From positions 1-22,914 of IMG/VR virus record IMGVR_UViG_3300044729_000354: a DNA stretch of 22,914 nucleotides; one strand, 5' to 3'. Of the stretch, positions 9,566 to 22,914 are shown in pieces. The position numbers and the translations under genes are program-made. Within the stretch, counting starts at the first letter, position 1, and each line of letters begins with the position of its first letter. The notes beneath the pieces are model-generated. The model did no database searches. It was not told the origin of the DNA and saw only the letters and a list, made by a program, of their open reading frames with translations. This stretch comes from a virus.

Positions 9566-9910
9566 GATCCAGTTAATATTTTCTTCATCCCATGTGTACA
9601 GCTGACCATCAGTGGGCATCGCTACAGGAGATTCCCATTGAGCGTCTGCATTAAGTAACCACGATGGGAATGGTTTAGGTGGAACAAAAGCATCAATATC
9701 TGCTCTGTACATATAACCAATACCAGCATAGTTCTTACGCATGTTGCCGTTGTAGGAAGTTTGTTTCCAAGTACCTCCTAAAATCTTCTCTAAATGTGCT
9801 GCTCCAATGTGTTCTTTCTCAACACCTTCAGCATCAGAAGTATCTTTGTTATCAACAACCACTACTTGAGTAACAATATTGTTCTCATCAATCTTTGCGA
9901 AGTGAGCCAT
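9551..9910 (-). CDS. Conserved aquatic-phage protein, 119 aa
   Basis: Starts MAHFAKIDENNIVTQVVVVD and contains GGTWKQTSYNGNMRKNYAG and IGYMYRADIDAFVPPKPFPS, the layout of a protein widespread in cyanophages and other aquatic phages, usually near tail-fibre genes. The ATG at 9910 overlaps the stop of the oxygenase-like gene as TAATG, with GGAGG upstream. It has no catalytic motif. It may be a fibre-associated or chaperone protein, which is inference from its recurring neighbourhood. Confidence 0.75.
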   Translation of the reverse strand: MAHFAKIDENNIVTQVVVVDNKDTSDAEGVEKEHIGAAHLEKILGGTWKQTSYNGNMRKNYAGIGYMYRADIDAFVPPKPFPSWLLNADAQWESPVAMPTDGQLYTWDEENINWILTNT

Positions 9911-10512
9911 TACGCCTCCAGCCTAAGTCCAGTTAAGTCCATTTCTTCCCCGACAACACCGACTGGGAAGGTATTAAACGATAGTGAAATCCGAGTGTCA
10001 TCGCCTTTGACTTCAGGAACCATATGCGTCAGTGACGATGGAAACAGAATCAGCCTGCCTGCATAAGCCTCAAACCACCAAGACTCTGAGTTGTATGCGT
10101 TCCACTCTGACGGTGGAAACTTAATCTGTTGCCACCCATCTTTGTAAAAGAAAATCTTGTCGTCAGCGTTGGTCTGCACATAAAACACGCCTGAGATGTA
10201 GCTGTTGGGATGTGCGTGTTTGTGATGGTATTGCCCTGGCTCCGAGTAATTACACCAGCTTTGAGTCACTCGTAGGCTTACGTTGTGCTTGGGATTGACT
10301 GTGCTTTTGAAGTAATCCGACACCGCATCTTCTATGAACGAACGCAGCGACGTTAGCGCAGGATCACGCAGCACAAAGTTGTTGGTAGACGTTGTGTTAC
10401 CCATGTTGGGTCTTGTTGGCAGTTCACGGATGAAGAACAGCTCCTCATCGCTCAAAGGTCTACCAAGCTCTGCAAAGCCTACAGGGATGGGGAATAAGTT
10501 ATGCAACTGCAC
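9910..10512 (-). CDS. 2OG-Fe(II) oxygenase-like protein
   Basis: About 200 residues. The frame extends to a TTG at 10518, but AGAGGA lies about 8 bases from the GTG at 10512, giving (M)QLHNLFPIPVGFAELG. The motif block WCNYSEPGQYHHKHAHPNS followed by YISGVFYV (about residues 86-112), the later H163 in LTHMVPEV and R174 in TRISLSFN match the jelly-roll 2OG-Fe(II) oxygenase family often found in phages (2OG-FeII_Oxy_5 type). H99 or H101 with H163 are likely iron ligands and R174 would bind 2-oxoglutarate. It sits among fibre genes and may hydroxylate a virion or host protein. The substrate is unknown. It overlaps the 84-aa gene by 14 bases. Confidence 0.78.
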   Translation of the reverse strand: MQLHNLFPIPVGFAELGRPLSDEELFFIRELPTRPNMGNTTSTNNFVLRDPALTSLRSFIEDAVSDYFKSTVNPKHNVSLRVTQSWCNYSEPGQYHHKHAHPNSYISGVFYVQTNADDKIFFYKDGWQQIKFPPSEWNAYNSESWWFEAYAGRLILFPSSLTHMVPEVKGDDTRISLSFNTFPVGVVGEEMDLTGLRLEA

Positions 10513-16462: not shown

Positions 16463-17716
16463 TCACCAACCTATTGTTGTGTCTAGGACTTCGTACTCTT
16501 CTTCATTCAAGTTCTGATTCCAATCTGCTACCTGTATTTGATCAATGTAACTAACAGCATCTATTAAGTCATCATGAGTCTTGCTATCAGGAAACTGCAT
16601 CAGTTGGTCTATAAACTTGTTATTCCAATCAGCTTCTTTCAGTACAATCCTACCATGTTCAAATCGTCCTTGTAGTGACCAAACAATCCTATCTGTCTTC
16701 TTCTTATTACCATGTGTTAACTCTTCAATACGAGGATAGTAGTTCAATCTCCTCATCAGATCATTCATGTAAGGCATTACTGCATTCTTCAATGCACCTT
16801 TCTCAATCCCTACAGCATTGACTCTGTAGTCTTTAGCAGCCTTTAATATCCTCACTGCTGTTTCTCGGACATCCCATCTACCATACTGTATGTCAGCAAC
16901 CCACCAGCCTTTAGTGTTAACCTTAACAATGGCTATCGCTGTTTCATCCAACTTAGAGTTTTTCGTCTTGTTCGCCTGAGATGAATCCGTAAAACCACAA
17001 AGATCCACCGCAATGAAGTAGTTACCATCTTCAGGTTCTTCGTCAGTAATTTTAATCCATTCATCTTTGAAGATCTCCGACTGTGCAGCCTCAAACGATG
17101 CCATGAACTCTTGTCTGAAAGCAAAGCTAGACATTGATCCTCTAGCAGCTTCAATCTCTTCAGGGTCTAACAATGGATTATCAAAGCTAGTGAAGTGCCA
17201 TGCCTTGTAATGTTGATCCTTACCACTATCACCTAGTTTATACAGTTCATAGAAATGATTTCTACCCATTGGTGTTCCGATGAACATTGCTCTACCCTTC
17301 TGATCCGCTAATGCAGGTCTAAGGATTTGTTCGAACACCTGTGGTTTCATGTCTGCATACTCATCCATCACTAAGTATTTAAGACTAACACCACGCATTG
17401 TCTCTGGTCTATCAGCACCCTTTAGCGATATCATTGCTCCATTCACTAACGTAATCTGCATGTTATTTACATGACTACCTTTGATGACTGGGTGTCCTAG
17501 CTCTAACAGCGTAGTCCACATAATATCTCTAGCTTGTCCCTGCGTTGGTGCTACATACCAGACATGGCCTTTATCAGTCTGTAGAGCCTCTATGATCAGT
17601 GTCCAAGCTGCTAACCTTGATTTACCTGTACGTCTACCAGCAGCGATGATCTTAAACCTTACAGGGTCTTTGAAGACCTCTTGCTGCCACGGTAGTAACT
17701 TAACTTGTAGATCCAT
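16463..17716 (-). CDS. terL: Terminase large subunit
   Basis: 417 residues. Walker A is GRRTGKS at 27-33, Walker B is LVMDE at about 115-119, and the motif III-like FIGTP lies at about 145-149. The nuclease domain shows AVDLCG (D238) and the C-terminal HDDLIDAV (residues 381-388) with the paired Asp residues that bind metal. This is the packaging motor that cuts concatemers and pumps DNA through the portal. The start overlaps the TerS candidate by 17 bases. The length is on the short side for the family but all key motifs are present. Confidence 0.93.
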   Translation of the reverse strand: MDLQVKLLPWQQEVFKDPVRFKIIAAGRRTGKSRLAAWTLIIEALQTDKGHVWYVAPTQGQARDIMWTTLLELGHPVIKGSHVNNMQITLVNGAMISLKGADRPETMRGVSLKYLVMDEYADMKPQVFEQILRPALADQKGRAMFIGTPMGRNHFYELYKLGDSGKDQHYKAWHFTSFDNPLLDPEEIEAARGSMSSFAFRQEFMASFEAAQSEIFKDEWIKITDEEPEDGNYFIAVDLCGFTDSSQANKTKNSKLDETAIAIVKVNTKGWWVADIQYGRWDVRETAVRILKAAKDYRVNAVGIEKGALKNAVMPYMNDLMRRLNYYPRIEELTHGNKKKTDRIVWSLQGRFEHGRIVLKEADWNNKFIDQLMQFPDSKTHDDLIDAVSYIDQIQVADWNQNLNEEEYEVLDTTIGW

Positions 17717-18197
17717 CGTCTTCTTCTTCTTCGTAGTCTATCAAGGTAGTTTCTACTTCAACAGGTTCATGTTCAATCATCTCTACTGGGGTATCATTTA
17801 CTCCAGTTATGTTGATGGTAATGGCTCTAGAGCCTCCACCAGCACCTTTATCCTCAAAGTAACTTACTGGCAACATCCTATCAACACATAGCTTTAGCGC
17901 TGCCATCTGATCCTTATCCTCATCATTAAGAGCCTTATGCACTATCTTTCTGATGATAGCCTGTGAGTGTGTCAGCAACAGTGAAGCTGTTAGTTCTTTA
18001 ATCCTTGCTGCTTCACCAGGAGGTCTACCTCTTTTAGGTCTCTTAATGTACTTCTGTACTTCTTCCTTCTTAGGTCTTCCTCTTTTTCTTTTTTTCGCAG
18101 GCACTTTCTTTTCTTCATTGACTGCCACAACATCCTGGCTGACTGATGAAGGTAGCGAACAAAGATCAGATATAACTTCAGTTTTAATTTCGGACAT
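17700..18197 (-). CDS. Putative small terminase subunit with two AT-hooks
   Basis: 165 residues. The frame includes a GTG at 18200, but GAGG is well placed for ATG 18197. Two AT-hook cores, KRGRPKK (about residues 38-44) and KRGRPPG (about 55-61), lie in a very basic segment. A helical region with MAALKLCVDRMLPVSYFE and an acidic C terminus (DYEEEEDDG) follow. The position right before TerL, with overlap, is that of TerS, which recognises the packaging site. Similar positions in aquatic phages hold such proteins. Without a recognised TerS domain, a packaging-associated DNA-binding protein is the alternative. Confidence 0.68.
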   Translation of the reverse strand: MSEIKTEVISDLCSLPSSVSQDVVAVNEEKKVPAKKRKRGRPKKEEVQKYIKRPKRGRPPGEAARIKELTASLLLTHSQAIIRKIVHKALNDEDKDQMAALKLCVDRMLPVSYFEDKGAGGGSRAITINITGVNDTPVEMIEHEPVEVETTLIDYEEEEDDGSTS

Positions 18198-18328
18198 CAC
18201 TACCTCTATATAGTTTCTCTGCCGGAAGGCAGGACTGTAAGGTGTATATAATTTTATGTATCTACAATGTAGTGTATGACGATAAGTTATATGTCTACTA
18301 TTATTTAGTTTTTATACGATGTTTTGTT

Positions 18329-18350: not shown

Positions 18351-18379
18351 ATTCTAGCATATTTTTAAGAGTTTGTCAA
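18351..18379 (-). promoter_or_regulatory. Consensus sigma70 late promoter
   Basis: On the minus strand TTGACA (18379-18374), a 17-base spacer and TAGAAT (18356-18351), with TGC before the -10 (extended -10). The expected start is about 18344, giving a leader of about 147 bases before TerS. It shares CTTGACAAA and a TAAAAA spacer tract with the promoter at 9542-9514, suggesting one promoter class for the structural genes. Confidence 0.8.
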
Positions 18380-18427: not shown

Positions 18428-18451
18428 TTACATGCAAGAATCATGCCAACA

Positions 18452-18565: not shown

Positions 18566-18630
18566 CCATTTTAGCTTTTTTTTGAGGCTAGGTAGTGTTT
18601 TCCTTTTTAGCTTTTTTTAAGGCTAGGTAG
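18566..18630. repeat. Two 36-bp-spaced repeats with T-tracts
   Basis: Each copy runs from a CC, through TTTTAGC and a 7-8 base T-tract, to GGCTAGGTAG. Copies begin at 18566 and 18602. They lie between the AT-rich repeat and the iteron array. Phased T-tracts could bend DNA. Confidence 0.75.
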
Positions 18631-18670
18631 CACCACAACATTTACACTACAACACAGACCCCTCCCCCTA

Positions 18671-18747
18671 TGTTGATAACCTGTTGATAACTATGATGTT
18701 ATCTGTGGATAACTTGTTAGTAACCTGTGGATAACTATGATGGTAAC
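18671..18747. repeat. Seven 11-bp iterons carrying four DnaA boxes
   Basis: Units start at 18671, 18682, 18693, 18704, 18715, 18726 and 18737, all exactly 11 bp apart, with consensus TGTNGATAACY. Units 4 and 6 contain TGTGGATAA, the reverse complement of the perfect DnaA box TTATCCACA. Units 1 and 2 contain TGTTGATAA (TTATCAACA), and unit 5 is close (TTACTAACA). All boxes share one orientation and one helical face. A role as replication origin or DnaA-responsive switch is likely. Confidence 0.8.
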
Positions 18748-18834: not shown

Positions 18835-18850
18835 TGTTCCACGTGAAACT
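18835..18850. promoter_or_regulatory. parS-like site (ParB binding)
   Basis: TGTTCCACGTGAAACT matches the bacterial chromosomal parS consensus TGTTNCACGTGAAACA at every defined position but the last. ParB/Spo0J binds this 16-bp site to load onto chromosomes. No ParA or ParB gene is seen in the window, so host ParB would be the partner. Function is inferred from the match. Confidence 0.7.
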
Positions 18851-18867
18851 GTTGTATTCGAACAACA
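18850..18867. promoter_or_regulatory. Perfect-arm inverted repeat next to the parS-like site
   Basis: TGTTGT (18850-18855) and ACAACA (18862-18867) are exact reverse complements around a 6-base spacer, ATTCGA. This is the shape of an operator for a dimeric regulator. It begins on the last base of the parS-like site and lies about 50 bp before the early promoter. Confidence 0.55.
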
Positions 18868-18919
18868 CTACCGTTCATCATTGGATATTGTCCGCTCGTC
18901 GGATAGACCTGAAATGCCA

Positions 18920-18948
18920 TTGACAACGCAAAATCACCTAGTTAGTAT
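18920..18948 (+). promoter_or_regulatory. Consensus sigma70 early promoter
   Basis: TTGACA (18920-18925), a 17-base spacer and TAGTAT (18943-18948). The expected start is about 18955, some 27 bases before the first early gene. Host RNA polymerase could transcribe the right arm from here straight after DNA entry. Confidence 0.8.
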
Positions 18949-19155: not shown

Positions 19156-19797
19156 ATGTCAGTAAAAATCAGCGTCACATCAAAGCTTGATGGCATTCGA
19201 TCATGGTCCTTGCAGGCATTGGATACATGTCCGGGTTCGAAGGCTAGCGATGGTTCGCTTGTTGATGCGTGCAAAGGGTGTTATGCAACGGCAGGTAATT
19301 ATTATCGCCCTAATGTCAAAGCACCAAGGATTCACAATCGTGAAGATTGGCAGCGTGATAGTTGGGTTGATGATATGGTCAAAGCTTTAGACTCGGATCG
19401 TTACTTTCGCTGGTTTGATAGCGGCGACATGTACGCTTTAGGGTTAGCAGAGAAAATGCTTCAGGTAATGCAGCGTACACCATGGGTTAAACACTGGTTA
19501 CCAACTAGGATGTACAAATTCACCAAGTTTCAATCAATCATTGACCAGATGGATGCATTGGACAATGTAGTCGTGCGTCGATCATCGGATTCTATTGTCG
19601 GCGAAGTATTGGACGCACCATGGTCTAGCACCATTGCAACAAGCTTCGATGCTGTCAATGTCAAAGTCTGCGAAGCATACCAGCATGAGGGTAAGTGTAA
19701 TGGTTGCCGTGCATGTTGGGATAAATCAGTTAGCACTATTGGCTACATTGCCCATGGTGTTAAAATGTCCAAGGTAATCAAACTAAAGGTAATGTAA
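19156..19797 (+). CDS. GP88-like cysteine-rich phage protein
   Basis: 213 residues. The N-terminal block RSWSLQALDTCPGS and DACKGCYATAGNYY (C25, C39, C42) and a C-terminal cluster C172, C181, C184, C187 (KCNGCRACW) match the layout of the 'gene product 88' family of phages. Seven cysteines in two clusters suggest a zinc or iron-sulphur site. The region between has RWFDSGDMYALGLAEKMLQV and LPTRMYKFTKF, also conserved in the family. The function is unknown. It overlaps the next gene as TAATG. AAAGG lies about 10 bases upstream. Confidence 0.8.
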   Translation: MSVKISVTSKLDGIRSWSLQALDTCPGSKASDGSLVDACKGCYATAGNYYRPNVKAPRIHNREDWQRDSWVDDMVKALDSDRYFRWFDSGDMYALGLAEKMLQVMQRTPWVKHWLPTRMYKFTKFQSIIDQMDALDNVVVRRSSDSIVGEVLDAPWSSTIATSFDAVNVKVCEAYQHEGKCNGCRACWDKSVSTIGYIAHGVKMSKVIKLKVM

Positions 19798-22492: not shown

Positions 22493-22914
22493 GTGAACTA
22501 CTTAGCCACGCATGTTGGCTGTGATGATTGTGGATCTAGTGATGCATTGTCCGTATCTGTTAATGACAAAGGAGAGACTTGGTCACATTGTTTTGCTTGT
22601 GGTACGAATACGAAAATGTATGAACATGATGACATTCTACGACAAAAGCACGACATTCTACGACAAAATCCTACAAAGCCTGCTAAGGTGATTCCAATGC
22701 TAGATGGTAAGTATCAGTCTATACCGCTAAGAAACCTCTCCAGAGATGCCTTAAAAGCCTTTGGTGTGATGATCACTGATGAGGGTGGTGTGGCTTTTCC
22801 CTACTGTGATGCTGATGGTAAGGTCACTGCATACAAGGTAAGACATGATGCAATGAAGACTGATTGCGCCATCAAAGGTGACTGGTCTAAGGCTACTTTG
22901 TTCGGACAGCATTT
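22493..22914 (+). CDS. T7 gp4-like primase/helicase, N-terminal part (cut by right edge)
   Basis: GTG start with GGAG eight bases upstream. The first ~40 residues form the zinc-binding primase domain: HVGCDDCGSS (C10, C13) and WSHCFACG (C33, C36), as in T7 gp4. Then comes a linker with a tandem 7-residue duplication (DILRQKH, DILRQNP), and the start of the RNA polymerase domain (LDGKYQSIPLRNLSRDALKA, then VAFPYCDADGKVTAYKVR). About 140 residues are visible. The full protein would prime and unwind DNA at the phage replisome. Its presence with the origin-like region supports self-directed replication. Confidence 0.88.
   Translation, partial: MNYLATHVGCDDCGSSDALSVSVNDKGETWSHCFACGTNTKMYEHDDILRQKHDILRQNPTKPAKVIPMLDGKYQSIPLRNLSRDALKAFGVMITDEGGVAFPYCDADGKVTAYKVRHDAMKTDCAIKGDWSKATLFGQH
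22631..22668. repeat. 21-bp in-frame tandem repeat in the primase gene
   Basis: GACATTCTACGACAAAA occurs at 22631-22647 and 22652-22668, period 21 bp. It doubles the seven residues DILRQ.. in the linker after the zinc domain, which should be tolerated there. Confidence 0.85.

Follow-up and report, generated by a model that had tools for sequence, protein, structure and literature searches.

What does a parS site of the bacterial chromosomal type do in the control region of a phage? The DNA analysed here (the window) is a 22.9-kb fragment of an uncultured tailed phage. At 18835-18850 it carries the 16-mer TGTTCCACGTGAAACT, which agrees with the parS consensus TGTTNCACGTGAAACA at 15 of 16 positions and with its core at 12 of 12. 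Like the parS sites of bacterial chromosomes, it is a 16-base palindrome with the same core, GTTNCACGTGNAAC. A preliminary description of this DNA had reported a 15 of 16 match, unlikely by chance in 23 kb and lying beside DnaA boxes, and we can support all three points: the site is one mismatch away from the consensus, base composition predicts 1.2e-3 exact 12-position cores per window and 4e-5 per 783-base intergenic region, and two perfect and two one-mismatch boxes are found around 100-165 bases off. Regarding looser matches, a scan allowing up to 3 mismatches gave a single 3-mismatch place, at 9671, as the second-best match in the window. Shuffled sequences gave a mean of 0.85 matches at this setting, with 7 of 100 reaching 3, so the loose count is uninformative.

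The site lies in a 0.78-kb (783-base) intergenic region that separates the terminase genes (minus strand) from the early genes (plus strand). Its neighbours are an early promoter on one side and a cassette of DnaA boxes on the other. The cumulative GC skew has its minimum near this region. The features are as follows, with G003 denoting a longer relative.

16463..17716, minus strand: large terminase subunit (phrog_2)
17700..18200, minus strand: small terminase subunit (terS), named by its position before the large subunit, with no PHROG match
18351..18379, minus strand: sigma70-type promoter TTGACA-N17-TAGAAT towards the terminase genes, 11 of 12 letters
18434..18449, minus strand: sigma54-like -24/-12 element TTGGCATGATTCTTGC, by what we take to be the consensus
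18569..18630, no strand: two A-tract repeats (18569-18595 and 18605-18630)
18659..18672, minus strand: G-rich anchor CATAGGGGGAGGGG, the boundary of the exchangeable cassette
18671..18734, minus strand: DnaA-box cassette, with perfect boxes at 18704-18712 and 18726-18734 and one-mismatch boxes at 18671-18679 and 18682-18690
18835..18850, no strand: parS-like site TGTTCCACGTGAAACT (core 18836-18849), its core exact in 46 of 72 loci including the window
18851..18866, no strand: imperfect palindrome GTTGTATTCGAACAAC adjoining parS, which served as a parS-blind anchor
18871..18900, minus strand: two GAYGARCGG repeats (18871-18879 and 18892-18900), common to relatives
18920..18948, plus strand: early sigma70-type promoter TTGACA-N17-TAGTAT, 10 of 12 letters, 70 bases from the parS core
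19156..19797, plus strand: first large early gene, whose G003 homologue matches phrog_1392, of unknown function
22493..22912, plus strand: start of a primase/helicase gene, cut by the window end, resembling a G003 gene (phrog_239) by eye

The two perfect DnaA boxes of the cassette are the only ones in the whole window. A promoter scan of the window returned 4 promoter-like sites versus 2.9 in shuffles; since this total is near the shuffle level, the early promoter call rests on its 10 of 12 match and its recurrence in relatives, where the distance from the parS core to the early -35 is 62-92 bases in 44 of 48 loci. The promoter towards the terminase genes, with its 11 of 12 letters, is subject to the same reservation. 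The sigma54-like element is the one match in the window, against 0.06 expected, and 6 of 100 shuffles have one. By eye, sigma54-like TTGGCA-N-TTGC elements are also repeated upstream of terS in some marine relatives (L386, L388 and L030).

Who could read this site? The preliminary description had spoken of a phage without par genes, which cannot be judged from a 22.9-kb fragment, and a search taken beyond the window to records of the phage family agrees with it. No ParB_N profile match was detected in 13 records (window included, several of them fragments), and none of seven records gave a match to the ParA-type AAA_31 or to PF00589, the tyrosine integrase that would mark a temperate phage. 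The cognate parA and parB genes that distinguish a bacterial chromosomal parS were thus not found in these 7 and 13 records, respectively, and the reader would have to be the ParB of the host. A phage-encoded ParB or ParA was rejected as the reader on the same counts, as was a phage-plasmid with its own partition system. Phage-plasmids such as P1 and N15 have a centromere-like site in a phage genome too, but their ParA and ParB are phage-encoded and their sites differ in sequence.

Regarding the phage itself, the relative G003 (39,963 bases) seems complete, since its end repeats its start, with 30 bases found again at 39,837. Its genes include those for a primase/helicase, a Pol I-type polymerase, exonucleases and a thymidylate synthase. 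Judged by sequence likeness, the cultured relatives are distant: the portal protein resembles that of HMO-2011-type podoviruses (22-26% identity), the capsid protein has its best matches in cyanophages (30-35%), the G003 polymerase is nearest to that of HTVC103P among cultured phages (49%), and the only likeness at the DNA level is a 170-base match to CRP-4. A terL search of genome contigs gave L169 and L170, at 62-64% identity, in bins assigned to Sphingobacteriales and Verrucomicrobiales. Both are probably binned phage contigs, and with two such matches in unlike bins we dropped the naming of a host by this route. LexA-like CTGT-N8-ACAG sites, as we assume them to be, weakly suggest a beta- or gammaproteobacterium.

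To follow the site through the phage group we used terS as the anchor for finding relatives. The samples of relatives in this work are the nearest and not random ones (the best 80 of at least 600, of 277 and of at least 593). From 150 loci with a terS match we kept the window and 71 relatives, dropping loci with fewer than 900 bases upstream, with less than 78% terS identity or with an identical 900-base upstream stretch. Among these 72 unique loci the parS core was exact in 46, had one mismatch in 2 and was absent in 24, while 2,000 randomly drawn palindromes built the same way matched a mean of 0.004 loci and a maximum of 4. Together with the expectation of about 0.001 cores per window, this rules out a chance match. 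The preliminary description had proposed to look for the site at the same place in related phages: the core is exact in 45 of the 71 close relatives, and hence it is not absent or degraded in all of them. Of the 80 loci found through terS, 47 carry the core at 576-781 bases before this gene, in 45 of them exactly and in 2 with one mismatch, and no second copy with up to one mismatch was detected elsewhere in any of the 80; of the 33 loci without a core, 10 have fewer than 800 bases upstream. With the neighbouring TTCGAA palindrome as the selecting feature, regardless of parS, we obtained 51 loci: 44 with the core, 2 with one mismatch and 5 lacking it. A different set, of 51 rows selected by the motif itself, includes the window region twice (L081), and our counts are therefore taken from the 72 loci.

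The exact copies comprise six 16-mers that vary at the outer letters and two free positions, as the definition of the core requires, and the left element adjoining parS takes 37 distinct forms among 46 loci. Exactly one site was found in five of six long genomes and none in the sixth, G001. Its absence there and in 24 of the 72 loci indicates that parS is dispensable, and on a tree of the 72 loci its state changes at least 17 times, the tree being weakly resolved (29 of 68 inner branches below 80% support).

The trait reaches beyond the close group. A search of IMG/VR for a GTTYCACGTGRAAC site preceded by a DnaA box no more than 30 bases away gave 26 stretches, and 17 of them, some near-copies of each other, encode relatives of the terminases of this phage (in 2 of the 17 only the small subunit is in view). 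Large terminases matched over most of their length are 53-69% identical, with one partial match at 77%. In L044 the perfect palindrome stands amid five DnaA boxes. The L044-like marine sample consists of 64 loci, those of the best 80 of at least 593 with at least 900 bases upstream; parS is present in 4 of them and two or more DnaA boxes in 29, and without duplicates 53 loci are left, 3 with parS. The trait is recurrent but not universal, as diverged lineages carry parS, yet only 4 of 64 marine loci do.

Our preferred reading, to which we give a probability of about 0.5, is that host ParB recognises the site as a true parS, and that the phage thereby senses the state of its host while the host ParABS system holds and partitions a waiting genome. 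Host ParB-CTP clamps would load at parS and slide over the divergent control region, and the early promoter, around 70 bases away, would lie within the stretch that they cover. Through parS and the neighbouring host-regulator sites (here the DnaA boxes), an injected genome could sense the host state and wait, being held and partitioned by ParABS as reported for phi29 with its Spo0A sites and Spo0J. An effect of the clamp on the early promoter, 62-92 bases from parS, is possible as well. What the data show are the sequence and its place, how far it is conserved and recurs, the lack of any match to par genes or a tyrosine integrase in the records searched, and the swapping of the cassette around it; that host ParB binds, that the genome is partitioned, that lysis is deferred and that the phage is virulent are what we infer from them. 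The recruitment of host ParB had been suggested in the preliminary description, and this part of it stands as a prediction from a site that exceeds chance, occupies the same place in 45 of 71 relatives and comes with no par genes found. Besides, only 2 of the 72 loci have one mismatch although one was allowed. Against it count the 24 loci without parS, among them all 10 of the T6 type described below, as well as G001, the low marine figure (4 of 64), the at least 17 state changes and the distant cultured kin, recognised as such by their portal, polymerase or a short DNA match: in the stretches searched of HMO-2011 and HTVC103P (both 50 kb) and of CRP-4, the best cores have two mismatches.

The closest precedent is phi29, a virulent podovirus whose capture by host ParB is already reported (PMC9437464, in excerpt). 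The excerpt, citing Meijer 2005, states that the lytic cycle of phi29 is suspended through Spo0A sites and the phage chromosome captured by Spo0J in the spore. In the phi29 genome (L401) we found four exact parS cores, starting at 10446, 15904, 17244 and 18761 and all within the 16-mer TGTTTCACGTGGAACA, plus a fifth core with one mismatch. Three of the four lie inside annotated genes, the remaining one directly after gene 16, and no ParB is named in the phi29 annotation. The statement of the preliminary description that no lytic podovirus was known with this arrangement must accordingly be withdrawn, given these four cores and the Spo0J capture related in the excerpt (PMC9437464). Both phages have exact parS cores with no phage ParB found, and TGTTTCACGTGGAACA also occurs in the present family (L148). 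Host-regulator sites near promoters are reported for phi29, and the candidate sites here, recognised by motif only and with consensus sequences that we partly presume, may correspond to them. Unlike phi29, with its four sites, this phage has one, in its main intergenic region. It belongs to another virus family, G003 has a primase/helicase and a Pol I-type polymerase in place of protein-primed replication, and a sporulating host is not indicated. The site suggests, by analogy, that host DNA-sorting machinery is borrowed here as reported for virulent phi29.

Two other systems invite comparison. The CtrA-controlled phages of Alphaproteobacteria, for which the excerpted text of PMC9437464 speaks of ‘lytic deferment’, likewise gather host-regulator sites in large intergenic regions, some of them between divergent gene blocks; according to the same excerpt, the distribution of DnaA sites was not skewed in the phages of that study. 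The regulators differ from those proposed here, where the sites form exchangeable cassettes together with parS. Host-regulator sites beside parS would fit a deferral of lysis such as that of phi29 or of the CtrA-controlled phages. SGI1, with its parS mimics of an IncC plasmid, is a mobile element whose ParB is encoded elsewhere, and for it ParB binding and stability were demonstrated experimentally (PMC10954446, in excerpt); unlike our case it is not a phage and uses a plasmid ParB. A short-query search of cultured phages for parS gave nothing, which says little for so short a query, and a literature search covering mostly titles and the starts of abstracts, with few subscription papers, found no report of parS in a phage of this kind.

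The stretch beside parS is less constant. Between the parS side and the G-rich anchor, sister phages carry differing operator-like arrays in one slot, which we grouped into classes after inspection of the sequences. The parS core is exact in 16 of 19 loci with CTTAC-type cassettes, in 6 of 15 with the DnaA type (one more with a mismatch), in 0 of 10 with the T6 type, in 8 of 9 with TTGTC-N8-GACAA, in 5 of 5 with TTCTCA, in 3 of 4 with the Fur-like type (the fourth with a mismatch), in 5 of 5 with the NrdR-like type and in 3 of 5 other loci. The DnaA type thus makes up 6 of the 46 exact-core loci and 15 of 72 overall, window included. For the names of the Fur-, LexA- and sigma54-like motifs we used what we take to be the consensus sequences. 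Judged against first-order resampling of the 72 loci, the Fur-like 15-mer TGAGAATCATTCTCA occurs in 4 loci versus none of 20 resampled sets, TTGTC-N8-GACAA in 10 versus 0.1, DnaA boxes in 15 versus 1.15, the NrdR-like CWATATNTWGTG in 5 versus 0.55, and the LexA-like CTGT-N8-ACAG in 19 versus a mean of 2.45 (3 of 72 in a stricter 12-letter form). The NrdR-like pairs are 31 bases apart in L093 and L155, with one box only in L137 by the same scan; an excerpt of PMC2892513 gives 31-32 for NrdR boxes. In the 53 unique marine loci we detected DnaA boxes in 25, Fur-like forms in 2 and no NrdR-like, LexA-like or TTGTC forms, so that the cassette variety recognised so far is a feature of the close group.

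We compared 54 near-identical pairs (less than 2% divergence across terS and the beginning of terL), which overlap and are not independent: 38 have unlike cassettes, and 13 differ in exact-core state. On the 72-row tree the cassette changes at least 40 times versus at least 17 for parS. The cassette behaves as an element swapped between near-identical phages, and parS as a separate, more stable one. Such swaps are seen in the slot at 18671-18734 of the window and in L008, L016, L026, L093, L148, L151, L155 and L156. TTGTC-N8-GACAA arrays are present in L106, L110 and L113, and CTTAC repeats in L088 and L091. A phage-encoded regulator tracking the cassette was sought as well, in 59 loci and 40 families of early proteins (360 tests), and was rejected as far as these tests reach. 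The strong associations were with the T6 cassette (p down to 1e-7), whose linked genes go with parS absence (p 0.002-0.013). No early family clearly tracked the DnaA, Fur, NrdR, TTGTC or CTTAC types (best p for NrdR 0.013, uncorrected), in tests that have low power for rare cassettes and cover part of the early region.

These observations allow a wider, tentative reading, possible in our view though we would not bet on it, in which the control region offers a slot for exchangeable host-regulator arrays, swapped by recombination beside a more constant parS. Arrays for DnaA, Fur, NrdR, possibly LexA and others would then pass between near-identical virulent phages, and each would let the phage defer or start lysis on a further host signal, or else be a sponge that derepresses host nucleotide supply, given the DnaA, Fur and NrdR sites at nrd promoters. 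Swapped operator cassettes would show phages exchanging the host signals to which they listen. Meanwhile, parS would keep waiting genomes in the dividing host, and ParB capture would be common in virulent phages.

A narrower reading, in which host ParB at parS is only a local regulator of the early promoter, by road-block or sliding-clamp repression and with no partitioning, seems to us rather doubtful. The constant 62-92 bases to the early -35 in 44 of 48 loci and the likeness of neighbouring cassettes to repressor arrays would suit it, but in the six L044-type loci parS stands among DnaA boxes with no such promoter found within 260 bases on that side.

It is unlikely that replicating phage copies serve to titrate host DNA-binding proteins, with parS stripping ParB from the chromosome, DnaA boxes stopping host initiation, and Fur and NrdR arrays derepressing iron uptake and ribonucleotide reductase. 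One slot does hold several like sites, and DnaA, Fur and NrdR sites are present at Salmonella nrd promoters (excerpt of PMC2892513); however, parS is single-copy in all five long genomes that have it, and its constant position within the promoter region speaks for action in cis.

We regard as very unlikely that DnaA boxes and parS form a borrowed bacterial origin and centromere that starts replication, the pairing implied by the preliminary description. The five boxes around parS in L044, the 29 of 64 marine relatives with two or more boxes and the skew minimum nearby agree with it, and the boxes of the window are clustered as in a DnaA origin. Their retention in close relatives is poor (15 of 72), with the DnaA type in 6 of the 46 exact-core loci, and near-identical phages carry other arrays instead, so the boxes are unlikely to be an essential initiator in the close group. 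For this group, cassette swapping rules out the two elements as one inseparable origin. That the motif is bound by a protein other than ParB, or is a neutral relic, we find hardly credible: parS is absent in 24 of 72 loci and ParB binding is deduced from the motif, but the core letters are kept while the adjoining element varies (37 left elements among 46), and parS recurs in diverged lineages.

If host ParB binds, as in our preferred reading of a waiting genome docked on ParABS, the chromosome-sorting system would be used also by phages with no sign of a sporulating host, and pseudolysogeny and carrier states would gain a concrete, testable genetic basis. Finally, the perfect parS palindrome is enriched in viral contigs generally, which hints that ParB capture is common: TGTTTCACGTGAAACA was found in at least 120 stretches (L171-L290), versus 7 and 1 for two control palindromes. 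Some of these contigs may include host DNA. Two DnaA boxes within 600 bases of the perfect site were found in none of the 120 listed stretches; the site lies outside ORFs of at least 60 codons in 56 of them, and 17 have several parS sites. The ParB search covered the 39 listed contigs longer than 25 kb, and 35 of these had no ParB_N match; with the enrichment, this suggests that the trait may be common and overlooked. A phrog_2 terminase was detected in 17 of the same 39 contigs.
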